Assembly: GCA_030433135.1 (NCBI GenBank)
Contig: JAUILF010000015.1
Coordinates: 1-33,400 of the forward strand
DNA: 33,400 bases
Reading direction: 5' to 3'
Origin: Bacteroidia bacterium
GTDB lineage: Bacteria > Bacteroidota > Bacteroidia > Chitinophagales > Saprospiraceae
Position numbers and translations under genes: made by a program. The notes under the pieces are model-generated. The model worked only from the letters and a program-made list of their open reading frames with translations. It did not search any database and was not told where the DNA came from. Of the stretch, positions 8,717-30,992 are shown piece by piece (position 1 is the first letter of the stretch; the number at the start of each line of letters is the position of its first letter).

Positions 8717-10357
8717 ATGTCAAAAGTACTGAGGATACATAACGACGATAATGTTTGGGTGGCACTGGAAGATTTACACCCGGATGAAGTGGTAAGGATT
8801 GCTGGTACAGAAGTGCCCATCATCAGCACGGTTCAGGCCAAGCATAAAGTAGCAGCTACTGATATTCCGAAAGGTGGTTTGATCACCATGTATGGAACTA
8901 CCGTTGGGAAAGCTCTTCAACCCATATTCAAAGGTACATCGATCACCACAGAAAACACCATACATGCTACAGCCGAAGTAACGCAGGCAGACACAACCTA
9001 TGAGTGGAATGGCCCTGATGTAAGCGCATGGCAAAATCGCACCTTCTCCGGTTACCATCGCAAAGATGGAAAAGTGGGAACCAGAAACCACTGGTTGTTT
9101 ATACCTCTGGTGTTTTGTGAAAACCGTAATATTCGGGTACTTCAGGACTCCCTACTGGAGCCTCTGGGTTATCACAACCGGAGGAGCCAGGTCATGGATG
9201 TTAAACCACTGATTCAGGCAATTCAGAAAGGGTCATCTTATGCTGATCTGAGCGTGGAGAAGAAAACATTTTCCGAGAGCTCTGACAGGGTATTCCCCAA
9301 TGTGGACGGCATCAAATTTCTGACTCATGAAGGTGGATGCGGAGAATCGAGACAGGATTCGGAAATGCTTTGCAAGTTACTGGCTACCTATATAAGTAAC
9401 TCCAATGTGGGTGGCGCTACTATTCTAAGTCTGGGATGTCAGAATGCCCAGATCAGGATTCTTCAGGACTTTCTGGAAGAACTCTCACCGGATCTGGGTA
9501 AGCCGGTGTACTTTTTCGAACAACAATCCAGCAAATCCGAAAAGGAATTTCTTTCTCAAATTTTGAAGAGCACTTTTGATGGATTGCAACAGATCAATAA
9601 AATAGAGAGAAAGCCTGCATCCATTTCGCATATCACCCTGGGATTGGAATGTGGAGGTTCAGACGGGTTTTCAGGTATATCGGCCAATCCGTCGCTTGGT
9701 CACTGTTCTGACCTATTGGTCGCTCTGGGAGGCACTACCATACTCAGCGAATTTCCGGAGTTACATGGCGCTGAGCAAGAACTGGTAAATCGATGCAAAT
9801 CAGAAGCCATGGCGGAAAAATTTGTCACCCTGATGGAGAAATACAATCAGAGGGCCAAGGCTGATGGCACAGGATTTGAGTCAAATCCGTCTCCCGGCAA
9901 CATCCGCGACGGCTTAATCACGGATGCAATTAAATCTTTGGGCGCGGCTAAAAAGGGAGGCACCTCTATGATTTCAGGTGTAATGGACTATGGGGAAATC
10001 GCTACTCAACCGGGGCTAAACCTACTTTGTACGCCCGGAAATGATGTGGAGTCCACGACCGGTCTGGCCGGATCAGGTGCCAACTTAATCGTCTTTACAA
10101 CCGGCCTGGGAACCCCGACCGGAAACGTCATATCCCCTACCCTGAAGATGTCTACCAATAACGCCCTGGCCCAACGGATGTCTGACATTATAGATATCAA
10201 TGCCGGAACAGTTGTTACTGGTGAGCATACTATTGAGCAAAAGGGAGAAGAACTTCTGGAACTTTTGATCAGGACCGCCAGTGGAGAATATTTTCCCGCC
10301 GCAGAACGACTCGGGCAAGATGACTTTATCCCCTGGAAAAGAGGAATTAGCCTTTAA
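8717..10357 (+). CDS. UxaA-family (altronate/galactarate-type) dehydratase
   Basis: 546 aa. N-terminal SAF-like part (VAATDIPKGGLITMYGTTVGKAL), then GKVGTRNHWLFIPLVFCENRNI, FLTHEGGCGES, GLECGGSDGFSGISANPSLG, TGLGTPTGNVISPTLKMSTN. Confidence 0.9.
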   Translation: MSKVLRIHNDDNVWVALEDLHPDEVVRIAGTEVPIISTVQAKHKVAATDIPKGGLITMYGTTVGKALQPIFKGTSITTENTIHATAEVTQADTTYEWNGPDVSAWQNRTFSGYHRKDGKVGTRNHWLFIPLVFCENRNIRVLQDSLLEPLGYHNRRSQVMDVKPLIQAIQKGSSYADLSVEKKTFSESSDRVFPNVDGIKFLTHEGGCGESRQDSEMLCKLLATYISNSNVGGATILSLGCQNAQIRILQDFLEELSPDLGKPVYFFEQQSSKSEKEFLSQILKSTFDGLQQINKIERKPASISHITLGLECGGSDGFSGISANPSLGHCSDLLVALGGTTILSEFPELHGAEQELVNRCKSEAMAEKFVTLMEKYNQRAKADGTGFESNPSPGNIRDGLITDAIKSLGAAKKGGTSMISGVMDYGEIATQPGLNLLCTPGNDVESTTGLAGSGANLIVFTTGLGTPTGNVISPTLKMSTNNALAQRMSDIIDINAGTVVTGEHTIEQKGEELLELLIRTASGEYFPAAERLGQDDFIPWKRGISL

Positions 10358-10360
10358 GCC

Positions 10361-11200
10361 ATGGTAGTAGACGCACACCAGCACTTCTGGAAATTTGATC
10401 CGGTAAGGGACACCTGGATGGACCCATCCTCCATGCAGGCCATTCGAAGAGACTTTTTACCGGCAGATCTGGCTCCCATATTAGATAAATTGGGAATTGA
10501 TGGCACCATTGCGGTGCAAGCCGATCAAAGTCAGGCCGAGACTCAATTTCTGCTGGAGCAAGCTCAGTCAAGTAATATTGTTTTTGGTGTGGTAGGCTGG
10601 GTTGACCTGATGGCCAACGATCTTGAAAAACATTTAGAACATTATCAATCAGAATCAACCCTGGTCGGCTTTCGACATATCCTTCAGGCAGAACCAGCAG
10701 GTTATATGCTACAACCCGAATTTATCCGGGGTGTGCAGCTACTGGCGAAGTTTGATTTCACCTATGACATACTGGTCTATGCACATCAGCTGGATGATGT
10801 CTTAAAGTTTATTCCTCACCTGGAAGGTCAGAGGCTTATTATTGACCACCTGGCGAAACCGGATATCAAGCATGGTGAGATAAGCAAATGGAGACACCAG
10901 ATGAAGGAGGTATCCGGTCATAGCAACATCTATTGCAAAATTTCTGGCATGATCACCGAGGCAGACTGGAGCAAATGGAAACCGGAAGACCTCCATCCAT
11001 ACATGGACACCGTGTTTGAATATTTTGGAGTAGATCGCTGTGTATATGGTAGCGACTGGCCGGTTTGTACCCTGGCAGGCTCATATCAACAGGTCTTTGG
11101 AGTAATTGATAGCTATCTAAGCCAGTTTGATCAGACGGAGAGAGACAAAGTCCTGGGGAAAAACGCCCTTGATTTCTATAATATTGACATCCCCAAATGA
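10361..11200 (+). CDS. Amidohydrolase-family TIM-barrel hydrolase (L-fucono-lactonase-like)
   Basis: 279 aa. VVDAHQHFWKFDP at the N-terminus, LIIDHLAKPDI, YCKISGMITEADW, CVYGSDWPVCTLAGSY. Confidence 0.9.
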   Translation: MVVDAHQHFWKFDPVRDTWMDPSSMQAIRRDFLPADLAPILDKLGIDGTIAVQADQSQAETQFLLEQAQSSNIVFGVVGWVDLMANDLEKHLEHYQSESTLVGFRHILQAEPAGYMLQPEFIRGVQLLAKFDFTYDILVYAHQLDDVLKFIPHLEGQRLIIDHLAKPDIKHGEISKWRHQMKEVSGHSNIYCKISGMITEADWSKWKPEDLHPYMDTVFEYFGVDRCVYGSDWPVCTLAGSYQQVFGVIDSYLSQFDQTERDKVLGKNALDFYNIDIPK

Positions 11201-11925
11201 TCATTCATCTAATATCCAGTCCAAGGACGATCTCCACAGCCCTGATGTACTCCTTTGCTCAAAGAGCCGACACCGTGGTCTGGGACGAACCCTTCTACGG
11301 AATCTATCTGACCCATACCGGTTTTGATCACCCTGGCCGGGATGAGATCATCAAACACATGCCGGACAGTACCGACCATGTCCTCAATCGTATAGCAGAA
11401 TTGGGCAAAACCAGTCATGTATTTATCAAAAACATAGCATCGCATTTCAAAGTGCTAGATCCCGGCATATGTGTGAACCACCAGAATGTACTATTGATCC
11501 GGGACCCCAAGAGAATTGTTATCTCCTTTGATAAGGTGATCCATGCCCCTACGCAACAGGATATTGGAATACAACGCCAATTTGAGCTGTACGAACACTT
11601 AAGCCAATTGGGTAAGCCTCCCCTTGTAGTGGATTCGACTCAGATTGCACTTTATCCATCCCAACAATTGCAGTCACTTTGTGATAATCTGGGCCTTGAA
11701 TTCGATCAAAAGATGCTTTCGTGGCCTGCAGGTCCTAAAACGTATGATGGTATTTGGGCACCATACTGGTATAGTTCTGTGCAAAAATCCACTGGCTTTC
11801 ATGCATCATCGAACCATGATCCTGAGGTTCCACCACATCTTGATGATTTATATCAGGAAGCACTCACCTACTACCAGTTTTTATCCGAAAAAATAGAAAA
11901 TCGACAACATGCTTCAGACCTTTGA
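11197..11925 (+). CDS. Sulfotransferase-like protein
   Basis: 242 aa. N-terminal PAPS-loop-like HLISSPRTISTALMYSFAQR and 3'-phosphate-loop-like VLLIRDPKRIVISFDKV. ATGA overlap with the upstream gene. Confidence 0.75.
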   Translation: MIIHLISSPRTISTALMYSFAQRADTVVWDEPFYGIYLTHTGFDHPGRDEIIKHMPDSTDHVLNRIAELGKTSHVFIKNIASHFKVLDPGICVNHQNVLLIRDPKRIVISFDKVIHAPTQQDIGIQRQFELYEHLSQLGKPPLVVDSTQIALYPSQQLQSLCDNLGLEFDQKMLSWPAGPKTYDGIWAPYWYSSVQKSTGFHASSNHDPEVPPHLDDLYQEALTYYQFLSEKIENRQHASDL

Positions 11926-12808
11926 CGAAAGGAACCAGGACCTACTTGTTTTTGTAAGAGACCAGCTGGTTCACAGGACGGAAGCCAAAGTATCCGTATT
12001 TGATTCTTCCGTACAGGGAGGGGATGCTGTTTGGGAAGGCATCAGGCTTTATAAGGAAGGCATATTCTTACTGGATCGTCACCTACTCAGGTTGTACGAA
12101 TCAGCTCATGCCATGCAGTTTGACCCTTTGCCAGACCTGAAGTTCATTAAGGACAAGTTGATAGAAACTCTCCGTGCCAACAACATGGACAAAGATGTCC
12201 ATATTCGACTTACTCTAACCAGAGGTGAAAAAATCACTTCGGGGATGGACCCAAGACTCAACCAATCCGGTGCCTGTCTTATAGTATTGGCGGAATGGAA
12301 GCCCCCGGTATACGACAATAAGGAGGGAGTAAGCATTATCACTTCTACTATCCGACGTAATTCCCCAAACCACCTGGATTCCAAAATCCATCACAATAAT
12401 CTGATCAATAACATCCTGGCTAAGATTCAGGCCAATGTGGCCGGGGCTGATGCTGCTCTCATGCTGGATGTTCACGGATTTGCATCGGAGTTAAACGGGA
12501 CTAACATTTTCGCTATACGGAATGAAAGTGTTCTCACTCCTCATGCCGATGCCTGTTTGCCCGGAATAACAAGAGGTTTGGTCATCGAACTTTGTGAGGA
12601 ACTGGGCATTCCGCTTGTGGAAAAAAATCTTTCTCTCACCGAATTGTACAATGCAGATGAAGTGTTTACGACCGGAAGTATGGGCGAACTAACCCCGGTC
12701 CGAAGCATCGATGGCAGAACCATCAAGTCTGTCAATGGCAACCTATTGAACCGGATCCGTAAGGCATTTGAAGCAACCAGAAGCAAATACTGTACCCCCA
12801 TAACTTGA
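11909..12808 (+). CDS. Class IV (branched-chain/D-amino-acid type) PLP aminotransferase
   Basis: 299 aa. DSSVQGGDAVWEGIRLYKEGIFLLDRHLLRL, SKIHHNNLINNILAKIQA, ELNGTNIFAIRN, LPGITRGLVIEL, DEVFTTGSMGELTPV. Overlaps the upstream gene by 17 bp. Confidence 0.92.
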   Translation: MLQTFDERNQDLLVFVRDQLVHRTEAKVSVFDSSVQGGDAVWEGIRLYKEGIFLLDRHLLRLYESAHAMQFDPLPDLKFIKDKLIETLRANNMDKDVHIRLTLTRGEKITSGMDPRLNQSGACLIVLAEWKPPVYDNKEGVSIITSTIRRNSPNHLDSKIHHNNLINNILAKIQANVAGADAALMLDVHGFASELNGTNIFAIRNESVLTPHADACLPGITRGLVIELCEELGIPLVEKNLSLTELYNADEVFTTGSMGELTPVRSIDGRTIKSVNGNLLNRIRKAFEATRSKYCTPIT

Positions 12809-12932: not shown

Positions 12933-15900
12933 ATGTCCATCAAGGATAAACTGACATCATTAGATGATTACTATCGGCAGATCAAGACCGTAATTCTGGA
13001 TCGACAGCATCCGGTAACAGGTCTGCTCCCTGCCAGTACCGCCGTCACTATACATGGTGATTACCGGGATGCCTGGGTACGAGACAACGTCTATAGTATT
13101 ATTGCTGTGTGGGGGCTGGCACTTGCATACCGCAACAGTGGTAGCCGACCAGCTCGTGCTTACGAGCTCGAAAGCGCTACCATCAAGTTGATGCGAGGGT
13201 TATTGCGCTCCATGATGCGCCAGTCTCATAAAGTTGAGCAATTTAAATCCTCGCTGGCACTTCACGATGCTCTTCATGCCAAGTATGATACTCAGACCGG
13301 GAATACCGTGGTTGGTGATCACGAATGGGGCCACCTGCAGATTGATGCGACATCCATTTACCTGGTCATGCTGGGCCAGATGATCGGTTCCGGACTTCCC
13401 ATTATTTCCACCATGGACGAAGTCAATTTTATACAAAACCTGGTATACTACATTGAGCGAGCTTACAGGATCCCGGATTATGGCATCTGGGAAAGGGGTG
13501 AAAAAACCAACGTCGGATATGTGGAATTGAATGCCAGCTCGATGGGAATGGCTCGCTCAGCTCTACGGGCAATGTCAGGGTTCAATCTCTTTGGTAATAA
13601 AGGCGAAGAATCGACGGTAGTACATGTCATGCAGGACAATATTGCCTATGCCGAGATCACACTGGAGTCCATGCTCCCCAGGGAGTCCTCCACGAAAGAA
13701 GTGGACAGTGCCCTGTTGAGTATCATTGGTTTCCCGGCTTTTGCCGTGCATGATCCGGATCTGGTCTCTCTGGTAAAATCGGTTATTCGCAGAAAACTCG
13801 CCGGAAGATTTGGCTACAAAAGGTTTCTACTGGATGGCCATCAGACGGTTATGGAGGACCCGGACAGACATTATTACAATCCGGAAGAACTCAAACAGTT
13901 TGAAGATATTGAGTCTGAATGGCCTCTGTTTTATTGTTATGAATTTCTGAATGCCCTCTTCGAAAAAGATGAGAAAGAGGCGCTGAAGTTTCAGAAGAAG
14001 GTTCAGGAAGTCATGGTGGAAAAAGCCGGTATGTCGCTGATACCGGAGCTTTATTATGTGCCTGAAGTCAGCATAGAAAAAGAAAAAAGAAATCCTCATT
14101 CACAGGAACGGCTCCCCAATAGTAATATCCCCCTGGTTTGGGCTCAAAGTCTCTACCTGCTGGGATCACTGATGAAGGATGGCCATCTGACCATACACGA
14201 CATCGACCCGCTCAAATTGAGTAAGAAGATATCTCATCGCCACCCTACCATTCAAATCCTTTTGCTTACCAAAAGTCCTTTAATCAAAAGGCTGCTGGAG
14301 AAAGAAAATATTCCGGTTCAATCGCCGGAAGATCTCGGCGATACGATCGTTTGCTTTCCAGATACTATTTCACAGGTATATACTCATGTCGGTGCTAATA
14401 AAAAACTGGGTCTCACCGGAAGAAGCCCGAGGCGACTGAAGACGCTGGTTACAAGCAGACTTTTTAACATCAATGGTCAACAGGTCATTTGTATTTCTTT
14501 GTTCTTTCTCCCCAAAGAGTTCTATCTCGCCTTTGATGTAGATTTTTTGATTAACAGGTTTAAGGGTGAGTTGAGTTATATCCACCGGCATTGGAATCAA
14601 CCTGGCCAGCCACTGGTCACAGTGCTACTGACCGAATCTATGTGGCATTCCGGTAACCTTGGCCTCACGTTTTTGAAAGAACTTCAGACAGGCTCCGTGG
14701 TGGGATTGCCGGTCAAACTTGGATCTTTCGATGAATTAGCTCCTTACACCACGATGACTCCCGTCAACAACCCTGAAATCCATCTTGAACCCGAACCACT
14801 TGAACTACATACCGAGAAAACGTTCTTTCTCAAAATCCGGGGTGAACAGGTACCATTGAGCAATGAACAGGAGCTCGAAATCGAACTGGTAGCCAATCCG
14901 AAATTACTGGAGGAAATGCTGCTTACTTCGGTCAACATCTATGAGCAGATCGAAATCCTGGAACAAATTATTAAGACCTCCGGTCTCGATCATTCGATTT
15001 CTATCAATGGCGAAGAGACCCTTGTCAGTACATTGACCGAACAAATTTACTTTGAGGCCGGTCGTCTGCATCACTGGTCTGTTGTCAGACTCGCCTCAGC
15101 CCTTCTGGGCAAAGTGGATATTAATCTCCAACACTCGATTAATATTTTGCTCGCACGGCAAAAAATCATCCAGGTGGGTAAGGCTTTTAGTGATGATTCG
15201 CTCATCATCAGGCCCATACCTTTCAGTGACCTTATGTCCAAGATCAATACCTTCTGCAGGGATGACCTCAGGGATAGGGTATTTACGCAAGAAATATTGA
15301 TTTACGTGGGTCTGCTCAACAAGATCAACCCTGACATATTTAAGGATATGATCACGATCAGGGTGAGCTATATCACCTTGTTGCTTACTTCGGACGTAGC
15401 ACGAGAACTTGACATTCTGCAGGATGATGCCATTGACGCATTAATGGATATGGCGCCATCAAGTATTCAGGCCAGGCTGGAAAAAGTCCTGACACAGTAT
15501 CAATCTGCCAGAAATGTGGTACGGGACATGGAATCTCTCAAGGTCAAACAAATAGGAAGAGGGTTATCCTGGGTAAATGACCTCAATCAGCCCGTTGACA
15601 CACCTGAAGAAGGCTGGTTGAGCTGGAGAAAATCTACCGGTACGCTGAGCAGACTGGACCGCAATCTGATCAAAGGGATATGGCACCTCTTCGAACATTG
15701 TAAAGGTTTAATTATTGGTGGTAAATTAGAAAAGAGAAACCGGCTGGATAGCAACCTGATACTTTCAGATATGACACCCGGCGAAAAAGCGTTTGCCTTC
15801 AGGATCGAACACCTCTTAAACAAAATACCCGCTCCGGAGTACCGGCAACTTACCCTGGAGGCCATGACCGTAGCCGCCCGGTTTTCGGAGCAGAACCCCT

Positions 15901-16130
15901 CACTCTATGTTGACGATTACCTGGTTTTTGATGTGATCAATGGACATGCGGTACGGCTGGCTTTTCTGGATGCTCACCCTGAATGGGAAGACTCTTACCA
16001 GGATCGTAAGGCAGATGCATGGACTGAGTTTTACAGCCTACCACCACGACGAACCACGCATTTCATCATGGAATCGTTCAAGTATCTGCTCAATTATCAA
16101 CCTCAACAACTGGAGGAAAGTACTACCTAA
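12933..16130 (+). CDS. GH15-like / phosphorylase b kinase alpha/beta regulatory subunit-like protein
   Basis: 1065 aa. AVTIHGDYRDAWVRDNVYSIIAVWGLALAYR, DEVNFIQNLVYYIERAYRIPDYGIWERGEKTNVGYVELNASSMGMA, SSTKEVDSALLSIIGFPAFAVHDPDLV, PNSNIPLVWAQSLYLLGSL; C-terminal DMTPGEKAFAFRIEHLLNKIPAPEYRQLTLEAM. Resembles remembered animal PHKA sequence along its length. Confidence 0.9.
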   Translation: MSIKDKLTSLDDYYRQIKTVILDRQHPVTGLLPASTAVTIHGDYRDAWVRDNVYSIIAVWGLALAYRNSGSRPARAYELESATIKLMRGLLRSMMRQSHKVEQFKSSLALHDALHAKYDTQTGNTVVGDHEWGHLQIDATSIYLVMLGQMIGSGLPIISTMDEVNFIQNLVYYIERAYRIPDYGIWERGEKTNVGYVELNASSMGMARSALRAMSGFNLFGNKGEESTVVHVMQDNIAYAEITLESMLPRESSTKEVDSALLSIIGFPAFAVHDPDLVSLVKSVIRRKLAGRFGYKRFLLDGHQTVMEDPDRHYYNPEELKQFEDIESEWPLFYCYEFLNALFEKDEKEALKFQKKVQEVMVEKAGMSLIPELYYVPEVSIEKEKRNPHSQERLPNSNIPLVWAQSLYLLGSLMKDGHLTIHDIDPLKLSKKISHRHPTIQILLLTKSPLIKRLLEKENIPVQSPEDLGDTIVCFPDTISQVYTHVGANKKLGLTGRSPRRLKTLVTSRLFNINGQQVICISLFFLPKEFYLAFDVDFLINRFKGELSYIHRHWNQPGQPLVTVLLTESMWHSGNLGLTFLKELQTGSVVGLPVKLGSFDELAPYTTMTPVNNPEIHLEPEPLELHTEKTFFLKIRGEQVPLSNEQELEIELVANPKLLEEMLLTSVNIYEQIEILEQIIKTSGLDHSISINGEETLVSTLTEQIYFEAGRLHHWSVVRLASALLGKVDINLQHSINILLARQKIIQVGKAFSDDSLIIRPIPFSDLMSKINTFCRDDLRDRVFTQEILIYVGLLNKINPDIFKDMITIRVSYITLLLTSDVARELDILQDDAIDALMDMAPSSIQARLEKVLTQYQSARNVVRDMESLKVKQIGRGLSWVNDLNQPVDTPEEGWLSWRKSTGTLSRLDRNLIKGIWHLFEHCKGLIIGGKLEKRNRLDSNLILSDMTPGEKAFAFRIEHLLNKIPAPEYRQLTLEAMTVAARFSEQNPSLYVDDYLVFDVINGHAVRLAFLDAHPEWEDSYQDRKADAWTEFYSLPPRRTTHFIMESFKYLLNYQPQQLEESTT

Positions 16131-16436: not shown

Positions 16437-16453
16437 AAACCTTGTTGGGTACT

Positions 16454-18910
16454 ATGATTTACTTGTCTCTGCTTATTAGCCACATTAAAATTGCTTTCAG
16501 ATCCTTGTTGCGGCACCCTGGATTCAGTACGATCAATATTGCCGGACTTGCTTTGGGTATGTCCGTTTTTCTACTGATTCTTTCCTACACCAGTTATCAG
16601 GATAGCTTCGACCGGTTTCATCCTGATGCTGACCGTCTATACCGGGTAAATCAGACGGCCATCTGGTCCTCCGATGGTGGTATTATGGGATCAACGCCAC
16701 CACCCCTGGCGCAAGTTCTGGCTGATGATTTCCCCGAGGTTGAATCCACCACCAGGATCAACACTCCTGGTGACATGAAAGTCAGATATGAAAAGGGGGC
16801 CCGGGAACTCATCGTATTTCAGGAAGACCATGTTCTTGCAGCCGACAGCAATTTCTTTGAGTTCTTTGCCATACCATTATTGGCAGGAGATCCCGATAAT
16901 GCGCTGGCAGGCACTAATAAAGCTGTTATCTCCGGTGATGCAGCGTCCAGATATTTCGGTGATGAGTCCCCACTGGGAAAGACGCTATTAATAGGTAAGG
17001 ATCAAATGCCGGTTGAAGTAACCGGGGTTACTGGTCATCAACCGGACAACATGCATTTCCATTTTGACTTCCTGCTATCCATGCCCACCAATGCCGGTGT
17101 GGAGGAATTCAACTGGAGCTGGATCTGGACACAGATGGCAACCTATGTAAAGCTGCGTCAGGATGCGGACGCGATAGTACTGGAAGACAAACTGGCATCT
17201 ATAGAAGATTCCTATGTTCAATCCACCTTTGCACGATTAGGGATGGATATGGAAGACTTTATGAAAGACAAAGGTAAGTGGTCCTTTTACCTGCAGCCCG
17301 TTGAAAGAATCCATCTCTATTCTCAGGATATTGGAAACAGGCTTGGTAATACCGGCAGTATTCAAACTGTTCAGATTTTTCGCTTACTGGCCTTCCTGGT
17401 ACTGTTTATTGCTATCATAAATTTTGTCAACCTGGCCACAGCAAGGGCCAGCGAGAGAGGTAAGGAAGTAGGTGTCAAACGGGCGATGGGAGTATCTCGC
17501 AGCAACCTCATTTCACAATTTCAGACAGAATCTATCGTGACATCGCTTTTGGCTACCCTGGTGGCCATCCCTCTCCTGATCGGACTCAAGAGGCTACTTC
17601 ATGTCCTGGTAGGCTTAGAGATTCCTTCGTTCTGGTTGTCGGAGCCAAAGTATGTGGGTGTGTTCCTGATCATCCCGGTCATCGTAGGAGTGATCGCCGG
17701 AATATACCCTTCTCTCTACCTTACTTCATTTAGTACGGTCAAGGTGCTGAAAGGGACGATCACATCAAACACCGGCAACAATCAATTGAGAAAAGTACTG
17801 GTTACCACCCAGTTTACGATATCTCTGGCACTTATCGCCGGAACCATGATCATCTTTAGCCAGCTTTCCTACCTGAATGACAAACACCTGGGTTTCGACC
17901 GGGAAAACATTCTCGTAGTTAACTACGCAGATCAACTGGGAACAGATATTGAGTCTTTTCGACATGAGGTTGCGGCAACCACGGGTGTTGTGGAGGCATC
18001 TGTTGCTATGGATGTACCCGGGAGAGGAACCTGGGAAGATATCTTTTCCACTGAAGGTTCTGATCTAAAACTCTCGGTAGCTCAATTGAAGGTCGATGAG
18101 TACTTTGTACCGGTTATGAATATGAAAATGGCAGAGGGGCGGGCCTTTGGTGAAAATCGTAGCATCGATCAATACAGCGTAGTCATTAACGAAAGCCTGG
18201 CAAGTATGTTTGGTTGGACTAACCAGGAGGCACTGGATCATACCATCACATACCCCGGCCATGAAAAGCCATTCGATATTATTGGAGTGGTGAATGATTT
18301 TCACTTTCAATCATTAAGGCAGGATATCTCACCCCTGGCCCTGTTTCATTCCAGATCTGACATGTGGGGAGATCAGCAAAATGTCGTGGTAAAATTCCAG
18401 CAGCAGAGCCTGTCTGCAGTCATAGCATCTATCGAAGAAAGCTGGGATGTACGTTCGGCCGGGACTCCACTCAGCTATTCCATCCTGGATGAAGAATTAA
18501 ATAACCTTTATGATGAAGAGCAAAGCCTGGGTAGCCTATTGGCCTGCTTTACGGGACTTGCTATTTTGATTGCCATGCTTGGTCTGATTGGACTGGTGGC
18601 TTTTTCAACCAACCGCAGAAAAAAGGAGATTGGTATCCGAAAAGTCCTGGGAGCGTCAATCACCCGGATTTTTCTCCTGATAAACCGTCAGTACTTGGTG
18701 ATGATCGGTATCGCCATGCTCATCTCCATACCTGCTACATGGTGGATGGCAGAGCAATGGTTAGCTAACTTTTCCTACCATACTAATGTTAAATGGTACG
18801 TCTTCCTGCTAAGTGGAATAGTCATCACCCTGATTTCACTTATCAGTGTTAGCTATCTGACCTATAGTGCAGCCTCAGCGAACCCTGCCGAAGCTATTCA
18901 GGACGAATGA
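16454..18910 (+). CDS. ABC transporter permease (FtsX/MacB-like)
   Basis: Listed ORF start 16442 is TTG; ATG at 16454 gives MIYLSLLISHIKIAFRSLLRHPGFSTINIAGLALGMSVFLLI. C-terminal GLIGLVAFSTNRRKKEIGIRKVLGAS and NPAEAIQDE. Confidence 0.93.
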   Translation: MIYLSLLISHIKIAFRSLLRHPGFSTINIAGLALGMSVFLLILSYTSYQDSFDRFHPDADRLYRVNQTAIWSSDGGIMGSTPPPLAQVLADDFPEVESTTRINTPGDMKVRYEKGARELIVFQEDHVLAADSNFFEFFAIPLLAGDPDNALAGTNKAVISGDAASRYFGDESPLGKTLLIGKDQMPVEVTGVTGHQPDNMHFHFDFLLSMPTNAGVEEFNWSWIWTQMATYVKLRQDADAIVLEDKLASIEDSYVQSTFARLGMDMEDFMKDKGKWSFYLQPVERIHLYSQDIGNRLGNTGSIQTVQIFRLLAFLVLFIAIINFVNLATARASERGKEVGVKRAMGVSRSNLISQFQTESIVTSLLATLVAIPLLIGLKRLLHVLVGLEIPSFWLSEPKYVGVFLIIPVIVGVIAGIYPSLYLTSFSTVKVLKGTITSNTGNNQLRKVLVTTQFTISLALIAGTMIIFSQLSYLNDKHLGFDRENILVVNYADQLGTDIESFRHEVAATTGVVEASVAMDVPGRGTWEDIFSTEGSDLKLSVAQLKVDEYFVPVMNMKMAEGRAFGENRSIDQYSVVINESLASMFGWTNQEALDHTITYPGHEKPFDIIGVVNDFHFQSLRQDISPLALFHSRSDMWGDQQNVVVKFQQQSLSAVIASIEESWDVRSAGTPLSYSILDEELNNLYDEEQSLGSLLACFTGLAILIAMLGLIGLVAFSTNRRKKEIGIRKVLGASITRIFLLINRQYLVMIGIAMLISIPATWWMAEQWLANFSYHTNVKWYVFLLSGIVITLISLISVSYLTYSAASANPAEAIQDE

Positions 18911-19051
18911 AACGCGAGCACCTATGCAACTAATCCATTTTTGAATCCGTCTTTGTATTAAACGCACAGCATGCCATAGAAGTTTCTGTTGCTTATTTCG
19001 GGTGAAACGGGCCGGCCAGCACCACTTTTCGTTAACGATCAATAACCTGAC

Positions 19052-21472
19052 ATGATTCAGAATTACATTAAAACTGCCTTTCGGAACCTGTGGAAGCACA
19101 AAGGATATACAGCCATAAACATGTTAGGTCTCGCCATTGGAATGGCCTGTGTAATGCTGATCATGCTCTATGTCCGATCAGAAATCAGTTACGAGCAATT
19201 CCACGAAAATAAAGATGAAATATATCTGCTCAATGTTCAGGGAACCAATCCTCAGACGGGTGAAGTAACCAGGAGAGCCATTGGCCCCTATCGGCTGGCC
19301 GATGAACTTGCCGTGGATTTTCCGGATTTCGAAAATATCATAAGGTTCGCTGCCCAGGGAAGAGAAACCGTGGAGTACGGTGACGAGACTTACCGTGAAG
19401 AAAATCTGGCATTTGTAGATGATGGTGTTTTTGAAGCCTTTACATTTCCGCTGATCAAGGGTGAGCCTTCCACGGTACTGGATGATCCCTATTCGATTGT
19501 AATTACCGAAGCTGTAGCCACCAAGTGGTTTGGCACGGATGAGCCTGTCGGCAAAGTGGTTCGATTACGTGATCGTGATTTTACGGTAAAGGGGCTCATG
19601 GAGGAAATTCCCGGGAACTCCCAATTTGATTTCAATATCCTGGTATCGATGAACTGTGCTCCCCAGGTTTTTTCCCGGATAGTTTTGGAGAACTGGGGCG
19701 AGGGTTACGTAGTCACCTTTGTACAATTGGCTGAGGAGTCTACACCTGAAGACTACAGGGGGAGACTAGCTGATTTTACAGCAGTAAAATTAGAAGCATG
19801 GAAATCCTTTTCTCCTGTCATTGCCATGCACCCACTTACAGATCTCTATCTGGACTCCGGTGATTTGGCTGGTTGGCCACCCGGAGGAGACCGGACTTAT
19901 GTATATGCCTTTTCCGTTATTGCCCTGTTTATTCTAATCATAGCCTGTATCAATTTTATGAACCTGGCTACTGCCAGGTCGAGCCTCAGAGCCGGTGAAG
20001 TGGGGTTGCGAAAGGTAGTAGGTGCAGAGCGATCACAACTTATCGGCCAATTCCTGAGTGAGAGTATCATCATGGCATTCATGTGCCTGGTCATTGCAGT
20101 GCTTCTGACAAAAGTCACTTTACCTTTTTTCAACAACCTCGCTGACCGGGAGATAACCCTGCACATCTTTAATGACATACCTGCCCTGGCGATCTTTGTG
20201 GCCCTGACACTTATCGTCGGATTACTGGCAGGGAGTTACCCGGCTCTATTATTATCCCGATTCGATCCGGTTAAAGTGCTCTCGGGAAAGCAAACAACAA
20301 GTCTTAAGGGAGGTGGCTTGCGCAAAGTCCTGGTAACCTTCCAGTTTTGCACCTCGATATTCCTACTCATTGTGACCGCCATAGTTTACAAGCAGTTAGA
20401 ATATGCCCGGAATGTAAACCTTGGGTTCAACAAGGAAAATCTGGTTCTGATCGCCGGTACCCCTTTGGATTTCAGAGGGCAGTATGAGCAATTTCGCAAT
20501 GAGTTACTGTCCAACCCGAAAATCGTCAATGCAGGTGGTTCTTCCCGGGTACCTCCCGGGCAACTGACCAGCTCATTGAGGGCAAGACCCGAGGGAATCC
20601 CGGAAGATCAGCAGCGTGGCATGCAAACGGTATGGACCGATTTTGACTTCATTGAAACTCTTGGTATTGAAATGGCAGCCGGAAGAAGCTTTTCACGGGA
20701 TTTTCCGGCCGATGCTTCGACCGGATTTATCCTTAATGAAGCCGCGGTAGAGGAAATAGGATGGACTAATGAGTCGGCTCTCAACAAATCCTTTGGCAGC
20801 TCAGAAATCAGTGACTGGGAAGAGGGTCAATGGGAAAACCGGGATGGAAAAGTAATCGGTGTACTTAAGAACTTTCACTTCGAATCACTCCGGGAGGAGA
20901 TTATTCCCACGGTCTATTTCGTCGCACCATACATGGCATGGAACTATGTAATACGTATCCGATCCGGCGACATTCCACAAACCATTGCCTTTATCGGTGA
21001 AAAATGGGAGCAGTTCAACCCGGAAGTGCCCTTCGAGTATACCTTTGTCGATGAGAACTTTGCAGAACTCTATCAAAATGAAGAGAGGCAGGCAAAGATC
21101 TTCGGAACGTTTGCAGGTCTGGCGATATTCATCGCATGCCTGGGATTGATCGGTCTGGCTTCTTTTACGGCTGAGAGACGCAAAAAGGAAGTAGGTATCC
21201 GCAAAGTCCTGGGGGCATCCAGTATGGAACTGGTATACCTTCTGTCCAAAGAATTTACCTGGATTGTAGTGGTAGCCTTTCTCATAGCAGCTCCTGTGGC
21301 ATGGATGATTATGCAAAACTGGATGGAAAATTTTGCCTACCAGGCCAATATTGGGATCATGATTTTTGTTTTTGCCGGTGTCTCAGCCTTGCTCGTCGCC
21401 TGGCTTACGGTTGGATTTCAGACTGCCCGGGCGGCTTTCAGCAACCCGGTAAAAGCTATTCAATATGAATAG
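19052..21472 (+). CDS. ABC transporter permease (FtsX/MacB-like), paralogue of the preceding gene
   Basis: 806 aa. MIQNYIKTAFRNLWKHKGYTAINMLGLAIGMACVMLI, GLIGLASFTAERRKKEVGIRKVLGASS, NPVKAIQYE. Confidence 0.93.
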   Translation: MIQNYIKTAFRNLWKHKGYTAINMLGLAIGMACVMLIMLYVRSEISYEQFHENKDEIYLLNVQGTNPQTGEVTRRAIGPYRLADELAVDFPDFENIIRFAAQGRETVEYGDETYREENLAFVDDGVFEAFTFPLIKGEPSTVLDDPYSIVITEAVATKWFGTDEPVGKVVRLRDRDFTVKGLMEEIPGNSQFDFNILVSMNCAPQVFSRIVLENWGEGYVVTFVQLAEESTPEDYRGRLADFTAVKLEAWKSFSPVIAMHPLTDLYLDSGDLAGWPPGGDRTYVYAFSVIALFILIIACINFMNLATARSSLRAGEVGLRKVVGAERSQLIGQFLSESIIMAFMCLVIAVLLTKVTLPFFNNLADREITLHIFNDIPALAIFVALTLIVGLLAGSYPALLLSRFDPVKVLSGKQTTSLKGGGLRKVLVTFQFCTSIFLLIVTAIVYKQLEYARNVNLGFNKENLVLIAGTPLDFRGQYEQFRNELLSNPKIVNAGGSSRVPPGQLTSSLRARPEGIPEDQQRGMQTVWTDFDFIETLGIEMAAGRSFSRDFPADASTGFILNEAAVEEIGWTNESALNKSFGSSEISDWEEGQWENRDGKVIGVLKNFHFESLREEIIPTVYFVAPYMAWNYVIRIRSGDIPQTIAFIGEKWEQFNPEVPFEYTFVDENFAELYQNEERQAKIFGTFAGLAIFIACLGLIGLASFTAERRKKEVGIRKVLGASSMELVYLLSKEFTWIVVVAFLIAAPVAWMIMQNWMENFAYQANIGIMIFVFAGVSALLVAWLTVGFQTARAAFSNPVKAIQYE

Positions 21473-26948: not shown

Positions 26949-28835
26949 TTGCGTATGGCCCCGGAACAAAAGACGAGGAAGTCTATAAAAAAGAAAAGGA
27001 AGAAAAAACCTGTACCAAAACGCAGCCGGGGATCACGCCTGTCGCGTTTCCTTACTCCCGCTAATGCTTTTATGGCCATCTTTATCATGATGGCTCTGAG
27101 TGCCTTCTTTATCTATTTGGGGCACGATGATCTGATGGGACTTCCTCCAAATGTGCCCAAGAGTTCAATCCTTGTTCCCCAACTTGGAACCTTTCTGGTA
27201 CTCGCTTCGGCGTTTGGTTATTTTGGCTATCATTACCTGTCTGGGAATGCGGTATGGACCGGTTTACACAAGGTCTTCCTGGGCGTGGCTTTTGCTGCCA
27301 TATGTTTCTTGTTTGCTATGTCATTCAAGCAGGATATTGCGCTCAATGGCGATAATGCCGAGTACATGATTTCTGCTCAATCACTGGTCGAAAGAGGTGG
27401 AGTCTATCGCCTGTATACGCCATCCGAGACTCCCAATACTTTAGCTTCCATCGGTCTACCCGTCATGCTGGCTCCTATTTATGCCATATGGGGATTTGAC
27501 ATTTATAAAATGAAAATGCTGATTCTCCTCTTTGGCATTTCACTATTTCCCTTGTCCTTCAGGCTATTCAAAAATTATCACAATAATAGTTTCAGCGCCC
27601 TCCTGGCCATCACGGTAGCATCCAGCCCATACCTCATTGCTAATGCGACAGCAGTAATGACAGAAGCACCCTATCTGTGCTGGTCACTACTTGCCCTGAT
27701 CAGCTCGTTTCAATATCTGTCTTCCAAAAGATTTCACTGGTTTTATTATGCATCAACTTTGATCCTGATCGTAATGTCCTACCTGACCCGGGCTGTAGGG
27801 GTGGCTATTCTGGTGGCCTTGCTGACCACGCTGTTTCTCCGTATTCCATGGGGAAAATTAGGTAGTGGAGTGTTTGCCGGGGAAAACCGATTGCCGGTAC
27901 TTAAGTTACTGGCAGTGTCTGTTCCCCTGGTACTCGGTTTCCTGGTTCTTCAGTTGAGCATGTCCAATGACGGCATCTCGCAGCTGGATGTATTTTTCGG
28001 GAAGGACCTCTTTTCCTATTTCAATGCCAATATGACAGCATCCATGCATGTGGCAGGACATATGTTGTTTAGTAATGAAGCCTATCGCTGGTATCAAATG
28101 TTACCAGATGTTGGACTTAGCCCAACCGACCTGGGATATCTGGTGGCTGAACTTCTGATCCTGGCTGGTCTGGTCAGAGGGTTACTCTCTCTGGATCTGA
28201 ATGCATACTATAGCCTGACCGCTCTCCTGTTAATTTTACTGGCGAGTCTGACCCCTCAGGAAATGGTGATCATGAGGTACTTATCTGTTTTGATGCCCTT
28301 CATCATATATTACTTTGTGCATGGTGTGGACTGGGCAAGCAGATCCATCTTCCAACGATTTCATGCAAAGTCATCCTGGCATTCCCTTTTTCCGGTCATG
28401 GCACTGGCTACGATCTTCATGGTGGGTATGTCCGGCAATATTACCAACCTTTCTAAGGCAAAAGTAGGTACAGGGCCACATGCAGATGCCTATATCTATG
28501 CAGCATCATGGTGTGGAAAAAATCTTCCTTCAGATTCCTATGTTATGTCTTTCAAACCCAGGATCACTTACCTGTACTCCGGACTAAAGGGAAGATACAT
28601 TGCTTCAACAAGAGACCAATATTCAGAGGAGTTTGCCCGGGAAAAATTAGAAGAGATTGAAAGAGAAGGAGTAACTCATCTTATCATTGATGGTTTGAGT
28701 GGTACTACGCAAGATGTCATTTTTCCTATCATTCAAAACAATGCGCATCTCTTTGAAGCATATGACATACCGGAGTTGGAAAGAAAATGCACCGTCATCC
28801 GTTATAAAGGAGCTGACGGTAGTGTCATCGAATGA
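26949..28835 (+). CDS. Polytopic membrane GT-C-like glycosyltransferase
   Basis: 628 aa. Lys/Arg-rich N-terminus (KKKRKKKPVPKRSRG), many TM helices, ALNGDNAEYMISAQSLVERGG in the first large loop, soluble C-terminal tail. Confidence 0.7.
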   Translation: MRMAPEQKTRKSIKKKRKKKPVPKRSRGSRLSRFLTPANAFMAIFIMMALSAFFIYLGHDDLMGLPPNVPKSSILVPQLGTFLVLASAFGYFGYHYLSGNAVWTGLHKVFLGVAFAAICFLFAMSFKQDIALNGDNAEYMISAQSLVERGGVYRLYTPSETPNTLASIGLPVMLAPIYAIWGFDIYKMKMLILLFGISLFPLSFRLFKNYHNNSFSALLAITVASSPYLIANATAVMTEAPYLCWSLLALISSFQYLSSKRFHWFYYASTLILIVMSYLTRAVGVAILVALLTTLFLRIPWGKLGSGVFAGENRLPVLKLLAVSVPLVLGFLVLQLSMSNDGISQLDVFFGKDLFSYFNANMTASMHVAGHMLFSNEAYRWYQMLPDVGLSPTDLGYLVAELLILAGLVRGLLSLDLNAYYSLTALLLILLASLTPQEMVIMRYLSVLMPFIIYYFVHGVDWASRSIFQRFHAKSSWHSLFPVMALATIFMVGMSGNITNLSKAKVGTGPHADAYIYAASWCGKNLPSDSYVMSFKPRITYLYSGLKGRYIASTRDQYSEEFAREKLEEIEREGVTHLIIDGLSGTTQDVIFPIIQNNAHLFEAYDIPELERKCTVIRYKGADGSVIE

Positions 28836-28957
28836 CAGAATAGGTACCTTCTAATCCCCTGCTGAGTACAAACACGAATAAGACGGCTTGTGGTGCGACC
28901 ATCAAACTGCAAAAAGTTGGGACTTGCCTAATATATTGCAAATACTGCCCATATGTA

Positions 28958-28987
28958 TTTGACGGACCTACTTAAATCAGTACTTTG
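28958..28987 (+). promoter_or_regulatory. Possible Bacteroidota-type promoter
   Basis: TTTG (28958-28961), 19-bp spacer, TACTTTG (28981-28987), about 100 bp upstream of the 29091 start. The -7 match is imperfect. Confidence 0.3.
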
Positions 28988-29090
28988 CAGTGAGATTACT
29001 GTTGGATTTGGTCCCTGATTGACTAATCAATCAAACTCAGGATATAAGTTTGACACCAGCATAACCCCAACCAAGCAGTAGAGCTGTTAC

Positions 29091-30992
29091 ATGTCATCTA
29101 GAAAAGAGCGCAAAGGAAAGAAACGAAAACAACCCTTAAGAAAGGCACAAAAAAAACGCCCTTCGGAGAAAAAGCAAAGATCATCTGCCAAGCTTGCTTT
29201 TATGTCAAAGCCATGGGTTGCAGGAGTTGTTTTTGGAATAGCATACATCTGGATGATTACTCGGTTTTTTGTAAACTTTGGTGCCCATCCTACACGTAAC
29301 AGCAAGCTTATCAATATCCATTCGACTTTTAGTGAGACCGGGGAAATATTGATTTTCTCTATCCTGATCATAGTCTTTGGATACTTCGCAGCTCGGATCC
29401 TCAGAGTTTATAAACTTCCTAGGCGGTGGGACATAGTTGCTGGTGTGGTGGCCTTTGGGGCTCTCACTGCGTTATATGCCATGGCATTTACAGAAGAATT
29501 ATCTCCTAATGGTGACAACGCCGAGTATCTGATGAACACCAAATCATTGGTTGAGGAGGGAAGTATTTACCGGCTAAACAGTCGAGCTGACACTCGCAAC
29601 ACACTGGCTTCAAGGGGACTCCCGATTATCCTGGCACCCATCTATAAAATATGGGGATTCGATCTCGTCAAAATGAAGATGCTGATCATGGGTATGGGGT
29701 TGGCACTCTTTCCATTATTAGTGCTGTTATTTCAAAACTATATATCCCTGTCAAAGTCGATTCTCATTTCCATGGTGGTCGTGCTTTCCCCTCATTTATT
29801 GGCCGCAGCCTGTAATATAATGACAGAGATACCCTACGTCTTCTGGTCTGTGTTGACACTTTTGATGATGCAATTGCTAGCCAAAAATGGTTTGAATCAA
29901 TGGAAATATCTCATCGTATTTCTGGTTTCCATATTAATGACATATCTGACCCGGCCTGTGGGGCTGACCATGGTCGCTACGGCGATGGCATACATGTTTT
30001 TTAGTGTACCATGGATTCAGTACTTAAAAAAGGGAAGCATTCGAGAGCTTTGGAAAGAGGACACATTTCGCTACCTGGTGATGATCGTTGGTCCATTGAT
30101 CCTGGGATTACTATTCTGGCAGCTCTGGCTCTCGAATACAGGCGTGTCACAGGCTGAAATCTTCTTTCGCGGTGAAATTTTTGACCGGTTCTACATCAAC
30201 CTTGAGTCCTCATTGCAGGTCTTTTCTCAAATGCTATTCAGGTTGGACACCTATCTCTGGTACATCTTCTTCGGCAACTACCGCGTGCAACCTTTGACCA
30301 TCTGGAGCTGGCCCGCTCTTCTGTGCCTGTTTGCAGGTATGATTACCTACATGAGGAAGAACAACCTGGTATTCTGGTACACCATTATTTGCTGGATCAT
30401 TATCTTATTTGCCAGCCTTACACCTGCCCAGATGGTGATTATTCGCTACATGAGTATCCTGGTTCCCTTTTTTATCTTTTTCCTCTTTGAGGGCAGCAGA
30501 ATGATCGTTAAGATATTGGGGAAACTAACGGGGAGAAAGCTTAAGGCTGGATGGGTCAACCTAATTCCCCTTCTGGTTATGGCCCAGTTGATGTTTACCA
30601 GTTTTTCTTCAGACAGAGCCGTAATCACGCTGAATACGGCCGGTGCCGGACCCAATTACGACGACTATGTGGAGGTTGCCAGGTGGAGTAATCAAAATTT
30701 GCCCGAGGATGCATATGTGGCTTGCGTCAAACCCCGGATTTTCTGGTTTTATTCCCAGAAGGACACCAGACGAAGTACTACGATCTCCGAATTCCATTCT
30801 GCTGATTATGAGAAAGAAAAACTGGAACTATGGAAAAGTCAGGGGGTTACACATCTGGTAGTTGACCGAATCAGTGGAGCATCCCGGCAAAGTATTCTGC
30901 CGATAATTCAAAATAATCCCGATTTATTTCAGACTTTGTTTATTGCACCCACATCGGGTACGACGACCATTTATAAAATAAACTTCGAATAA
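29091..30992 (+). CDS. Polytopic membrane GT-C-like glycosyltransferase, paralogue of 26949-28835
   Basis: 633 aa. Basic N-terminus; SPNGDNAEYLMNTKSLVEEGSIYRLNSRADTRNTLASRGLPIILAPIYKIWGFDLVKMKMLI matches the upstream gene; LTPAQMVIIRYMSILVPF versus LTPQEMVIMRYLSVLMPF. Confidence 0.7.
   Translation: MSSRKERKGKKRKQPLRKAQKKRPSEKKQRSSAKLAFMSKPWVAGVVFGIAYIWMITRFFVNFGAHPTRNSKLINIHSTFSETGEILIFSILIIVFGYFAARILRVYKLPRRWDIVAGVVAFGALTALYAMAFTEELSPNGDNAEYLMNTKSLVEEGSIYRLNSRADTRNTLASRGLPIILAPIYKIWGFDLVKMKMLIMGMGLALFPLLVLLFQNYISLSKSILISMVVVLSPHLLAAACNIMTEIPYVFWSVLTLLMMQLLAKNGLNQWKYLIVFLVSILMTYLTRPVGLTMVATAMAYMFFSVPWIQYLKKGSIRELWKEDTFRYLVMIVGPLILGLLFWQLWLSNTGVSQAEIFFRGEIFDRFYINLESSLQVFSQMLFRLDTYLWYIFFGNYRVQPLTIWSWPALLCLFAGMITYMRKNNLVFWYTIICWIIILFASLTPAQMVIIRYMSILVPFFIFFLFEGSRMIVKILGKLTGRKLKAGWVNLIPLLVMAQLMFTSFSSDRAVITLNTAGAGPNYDDYVEVARWSNQNLPEDAYVACVKPRIFWFYSQKDTRRSTTISEFHSADYEKEKLELWKSQGVTHLVVDRISGASRQSILPIIQNNPDLFQTLFIAPTSGTTTIYKINFE

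Follow-up and report, generated by a model that had tools for sequence, protein, structure and literature searches.

Glycoside hydrolase family GH15 spans several alpha-glucosidic specificities, and its ordinary bacterial members of the glucoamylase/trehalase type, such as two Bacteroidota proteins of 613–615 aa (genomes G020 and G014), carry an N-terminal beta domain before the barrel. The alpha and beta subunits of eukaryotic phosphorylase kinase (PhK) form a scaffold family with another order, in which a GH15 domain is followed by PhK-specific domains and a C-terminal KPBB_C domain. The catalytic-type residues of PhK alpha are Glu185 and Glu371, and PhK beta lacks some of the catalytic-type residues (PMC10978961). 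Despite both glutamates, human PhK alpha was inactive in tests with maltose, isomaltose and glycogen, and why a glucoamylase site that looks intact should lack detectable activity was left as an open question in the 2024 structure paper (PMC10978961). The domain family is in Pfam and bacterial members are in the databases. The earlier note on this DNA had allowed that the protein might belong to an already well-characterised bacterial family; in the open-licence literature we found no functional study of a bacterial full-length PhK alpha/beta homologue.

We analysed a window of 33,400 nucleotides from a Bacteroidota genome. A PhK alpha/beta-like gene occupies 12933..16130 of the forward strand (+), from an ATG start to a protein end LEESTT, and encodes 1065 aa with all the peptides that the earlier note had quoted. 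As that note had also read from the last residues, a CaaX box is lacking. Nothing resembling a signal peptide is seen, and the substrate is therefore expected to be cytoplasmic. The first domain is GH15 glucoamylase-like and corresponds to D1 of PhK alpha/beta (~residues 10–415, 12960..14177, +; Pfam and phmmer), the middle region (14178..15404, +) corresponds to the PhK domains after D1 by the phmmer aligned pieces and by fold, and the phosphorylase b kinase C-terminal domain KPBB_C closes the protein (residues 825–1058, 15405..16106, +; Pfam). The Pfam matches are strong for both Glyco_hydro_15 (E = 1.3e-70, residues 10–812 with gaps) and KPBB_C (E = 4.3e-83, 278.6 bits against a curated cut-off of 27 bits).

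When the protein was compared with all PDB chains by phmmer, human PhK alpha and beta were the sole real matches, and they were spread along its length: PhK alpha (8jfk) in three pieces (E = 1.9e-199; query 9–604, 649–855 and 887–983) and PhK beta in two (E = 8.7e-155; query 9–859 and 886–1039). The D1 domain shares 56% identity with that of human PhK alpha and 45% with that of beta, against 48% between the two human domains. We also built an AlphaFold model with 18 bacterial homologues (pLDDT 77, pTM 0.76); in a Foldseek search its top eight matches were all PhK alpha or beta chains (E 1e-48 to 1e-55), with alignments of 1063–1124 columns, TM 0.65–0.72 and an overall rmsd of ~14 Å; in the model, the large rmsd indicates that the relative placement of the domains differs from PhK or is poorly predicted. 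The likeness to PhK alpha that the earlier note had seen continuing past the catalytic-like domain into the C-terminal region is thus borne out by profile, sequence and predicted fold, and the possibility that only the first ~400 aa would match GH15 is set aside. A GH15-only protein is rejected by the KPBB_C match and by the PhK matches along the whole length. The window protein is a genuine bacterial homologue of PhK alpha/beta over its full length, a structural member of the family with the GH15, PhK-specific and KPBB_C domains in the same order.

The end-to-end match in fold and sequence with PhK alpha (PHKA1; PDB 8jfk, 8z5r) includes the same two catalytic glutamates, but the stretches specific to alpha, ~610–759 and ~965–1045 of PhK alpha, are much shorter or largely missing in the window protein by phmmer coordinates, and the window protein, predicted to be active, comes without the CaaX box and without a PhK-gamma-like kinase found in its genome. 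PhK beta (PHKB) also matches end to end, but has Gln, Asn and Lys where the window protein has Arg50, Asp138 and the catalytic Glu372. The ordinary GH15 proteins of G020 and G014 align at the catalytic pair and at the W-x-R-D and W-E motifs, but are only 15–20% identical to the window protein and have neither the KPBB_C nor the PhK middle domains. The same architecture as in the window protein is found in Campylobacterota and cyanobacterial GH15 + KPBB_C proteins; Synechococcus elongatus, our control genome, matches both models, and the full-length Campylobacterota homologues have the same length, most of them being 40–42% identical to the window protein.

The gene is bacterial, as its neighbours are ordinary Bacteroidota genes. 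Upstream lie genes for an altronate/galactarate dehydratase, an amidohydrolase, a sulfotransferase (Sulfotransfer_5) and a class IV aminotransferase, in a compact run with few-base overlaps (8717–12808) that has no obvious glycogen link; the PhK-like gene starts 124 nt after the last of these and stands alone in the window genus. Two MacB/FtsX permease genes (16442–21472) separate it from the downstream formamidopyrimidine-DNA glycosylase gene (Fpg). In a second genome of the genus (G113, locus L029) the Fpg and FG-GAP genes are kept beside the PhK-like gene, which there adjoins Fpg, so the permease pair was either inserted in the window genome or lost in G113. The GC content of the gene is 46.5% and that of the window 45.8%. 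Contamination with eukaryotic DNA is ruled out by the bacterial neighbours, the uninterrupted reading frame, the host-like GC and the presence of the gene in two further genomes of the genus. Further along, the window holds a tandem pair of similar proteins with multiple membrane spans (26949–30992; 628 and 633 aa, alike along their length by eye), which are possible membrane glycosyltransferases.

The GH15 active-site residues are intact. The glutamates of GIWERGE and IPELYYVP, suggested in the earlier note as a possible general acid and base, are Glu187 (codon 13491..13493, +; GIWERG), the predicted general acid and equivalent of PhK alpha Glu185, and Glu372 (codon 14046..14048, +; IPELYY), the predicted general base and equivalent of PhK alpha Glu371, which is a Lys in human PhK beta (alignment; PMC10978961). 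Arg50-Asp51 of AWVRDN (13080..13085, +) aligns with the W-x-R-D motif of ordinary bacterial GH15 enzymes. Together R50, D51, D138, W186, E187 and E372 are common to the window protein, PhK alpha and the two ordinary Bacteroidota proteins, which come from the same bacterial family as the window genome, and all bacterial homologues that span the site keep Glu187 and Glu372; in human PhK beta the R50, D138 and E372 positions are occupied by Q, N and K. With a Pfam GH15 match above the cut-off and the paired catalytic Glu, the protein belongs to GH15 by sequence. Its active-site loops are low-confidence parts of the AlphaFold model. An intact site does not prove activity, because human PhK alpha with the same two glutamates showed none (PMC10978961).

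The most telling evidence on function comes from outside the window, from the gene neighbourhoods of the Campylobacterota relatives. A PF02685 glucokinase gene lies on the same strand directly 3′ of the PhK-like gene in ~13 of 17 readable loci, a count that includes near-duplicates such as L034 and L037. Eleven of these loci were identified by ORF clustering (L002, L003, L006, L033, L034, L035, L036, L037, L038, L041 and L042) and two, in G790 and G887, by coordinates; in L033, L034 and L037 the PhK-like and glucokinase frames share 4 nt. In L041 a glycogen phosphorylase gene lies 16 nt upstream, giving the order glycogen phosphorylase, PhK-like, glucokinase, and L035 also has the phosphorylase upstream. 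Genes for a GalT-like protein and glycogen synthase are nearby in L033, L035 and L038, and in L033 the glucokinase is followed by the GalT-like gene, two glycogen synthases and GlgB. In L002 the pair ends an Entner-Doudoroff cluster (zwf-pgl-edd-eda-PhK-like-glucokinase), and in G820 the gene is preceded, at a distance of several kb, by a large glycogen cluster. The GalT-like gene (GalP_UDP_transf) is repeatedly found next to glycogen synthase in the glycogen clusters of Campylobacterota (L033:9867–11009, L058:8446–9444).

Co-occurrence points the same way. Among 300 Campylobacterales genomes the glucokinase is found in 11 of 15 carriers of the PhK-like gene as compared to 17 of 285 non-carriers (Fisher p = 6e-10, ignoring relatedness), and glycogen synthase in 15 of 15 carriers (weakly in G592) as compared to 108 of 285 non-carriers (Fisher p = 9e-7, ignoring relatedness). 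Four Campylobacterota carriers are without the glucokinase. A distant Bacteroidota relative, G416, is without a glucokinase of the PF02685 type, and its PhK-like gene directly follows a trio of CP_ATPgrasp, Alpha-E and transglutaminase-like genes (L031:1343–4826), unlike the Campylobacterota operons. Since glucokinase is needed only for free glucose, which phosphorylase does not make, the arrangement of the PhK-like gene with glucokinase indicates an enzyme that releases glucose. The link of this family to glucokinase/phosphorylase operons appears to be unreported within the open-licence literature searched.

In the window genus the PhK-like gene has neither glucokinase nor glycogen genes as neighbours, so that the operon argument for the window protein is carried over from relatives 41% identical to it; the Campylobacterota copies sit in glycogen/glucokinase operons, while the window copy stands apart. 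The absence of a kinase or glycogen phosphorylase gene from the window, stated in the earlier note, holds. Away from the PhK-like gene, a glucokinase is encoded in all three genomes of the genus, and in the host genome a short glycogen phosphorylase of 547 aa, which starts close to its catalytic core, lies on another contig (G000:C162). This form is presumably without the N-terminal phosphorylation peptide on which PhK acts. A PhK-gamma-like (CaMK-type) kinase, for which the earlier note had proposed a search, was not found in this genome (91% complete; three clear Pkinase matches), the best Pkinase match being PknB-like with a transmembrane segment by inspection. That the protein functions as a regulatory subunit of PhK is therefore without support, as no gamma kinase partner was found and the CaaX box is absent.

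We favour, with somewhat better than even confidence, a cytoplasmic glucoamylase-type hydrolase of alpha-glucan (glycogen) that feeds glucokinase, a kinase-free member of the PhK alpha/beta scaffold family, because the GH15 active site is intact and the relatives encode the gene in glucokinase/glycogen operons. By inverting hydrolysis in the cytoplasm, with Glu187 as acid and Glu372 as base, the enzyme would remove glucose from a storage alpha-glucan, and the glucose would be phosphorylated by the glucokinase encoded next door in Campylobacterota relatives and elsewhere in the window genome. The domains that follow probably serve in holding the glucan or in oligomerisation. Of the two roles offered in the earlier note, glucan-sensing or glucan-hydrolysing, the hydrolysing one is thus supported by the intact site and the relatives' operons, and sensing becomes the rival.

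As a catalytically silent sensor or scaffold, the protein would bind glycogen in its GH15-like pocket and control or anchor glycogen phosphorylase, glucokinase or another partner, as PhK alpha/beta do but without the kinase. Human PhK alpha, which keeps its site and yet is inactive (PMC10978961), is the precedent for this; the non-catalytic two thirds are conserved along their whole length in bacteria, and the gene adjoins glycogen phosphorylase in L041 and L035. We nevertheless consider it unlikely, as the active-site residues do not vary in the bacterial homologues that span them, an adjacent glucokinase needs free glucose, and the host phosphorylase is the 547-aa form, in which the PhK target peptide is presumably absent.

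A shade less probable is an active glycosidase whose main job is another, for example trimming the alpha-1,6 stubs that glycogen phosphorylase leaves at branch points, or hydrolysing a di- or oligosaccharide such as isomaltose, kojibiose or trehalose. The range of specificities within GH15 allows for this, glucose freed at branch points would equally need glucokinase, and there are weak matches to an archaeal trehalase (NCBIfam, E = 3e-4) and, in fold, to the bacterial glycosidase 5z3c. However, the trehalase match is far below the cut-off of that family, and the recurrent neighbours found are glycogen genes and not disaccharide uptake genes. No pattern of replacement of the GDE_C debranching enzyme is seen, as GDE_C is absent from Campylobacterales both with and without the PhK-like gene.

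The preferred hydrolase reading would have a counterpart in the history of PhK. Eukaryotic PhK alpha may descend from such an enzyme that was recruited into a regulatory role, its site kept and its activity not detected, and PhK beta may be a duplicate with a decayed site. More tentatively, the bacterial proteins could be the living, active form of the scaffold, glycogen hydrolases that act together with glycogen phosphorylase and glucokinase, perhaps in physical contact with them; eukaryotic PhK would then have arisen when such a protein turned into a regulatory scaffold for the kinase that controls phosphorylase. The bacterial versions suggest that the scaffold's tie to glycogen breakdown preceded its role as a kinase regulator. 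Being small and free of a kinase, the versions encoded in operons with glucokinase and glycogen phosphorylase lend themselves to direct tests of activity, of binding to glucan and of oligomerisation.

The gene is patchily scattered among bacteria, which is the pattern expected from gene transfer. KPBB_C is found in 3 of 198 genomes of the window genome's family, all three of the window genus, in 2 of 398 genomes of a phylum sample (the window genome and G416), in 1 of 115 genomes of the order of G416, and in 15 of 300 Campylobacterales (5%). No GH15 protein besides the PhK-like one was found in the carriers searched.

In a D1 tree with an outgroup, human PhK alpha and beta pair apart from the bacterial proteins (support 96/92), and in a 600-residue tree without an outgroup the pair has support 84/63. 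These two human sequences stand for all eukaryotes in trees without protists or cyanobacteria, the beta branch is very long, and rooting with ordinary GH15 proteins is weak, as the joining branches are very long. The trees fit a duplication that gave rise to alpha and beta once their lineage had separated from the bacterial one, and so the earlier suggestion of an origin before the eukaryotic scaffold is compatible with them at moderate support. Capture of a eukaryotic PhK alpha-like gene by bacteria and its spread among them, in place of a bacterial source of PhK, would suit the patchy distribution and a bacterial D1 whose 56–60% identity to human PhK alpha exceeds that between alpha and beta, but is improbable given the separate human pair (two eukaryotic sequences in the tree), the rejection of a grouping of PhK alpha with the G416 protein (p-AU 0.0012), gene clusters that fit a bacterial pathway and the host's own base composition.

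A phage search for homologues gave no matches, and a plasmid search none beyond GH15-like E. coli chromosomal ones at 23–24% identity. One of these (L046:3001–4212, NZ_CP134663.1) is a GH15-like protein that appears to carry a signal peptide and resembles the window protein (P0001) at that level in the GH15 part only, and its gene adjoins a type III secretion-type secretin gene.
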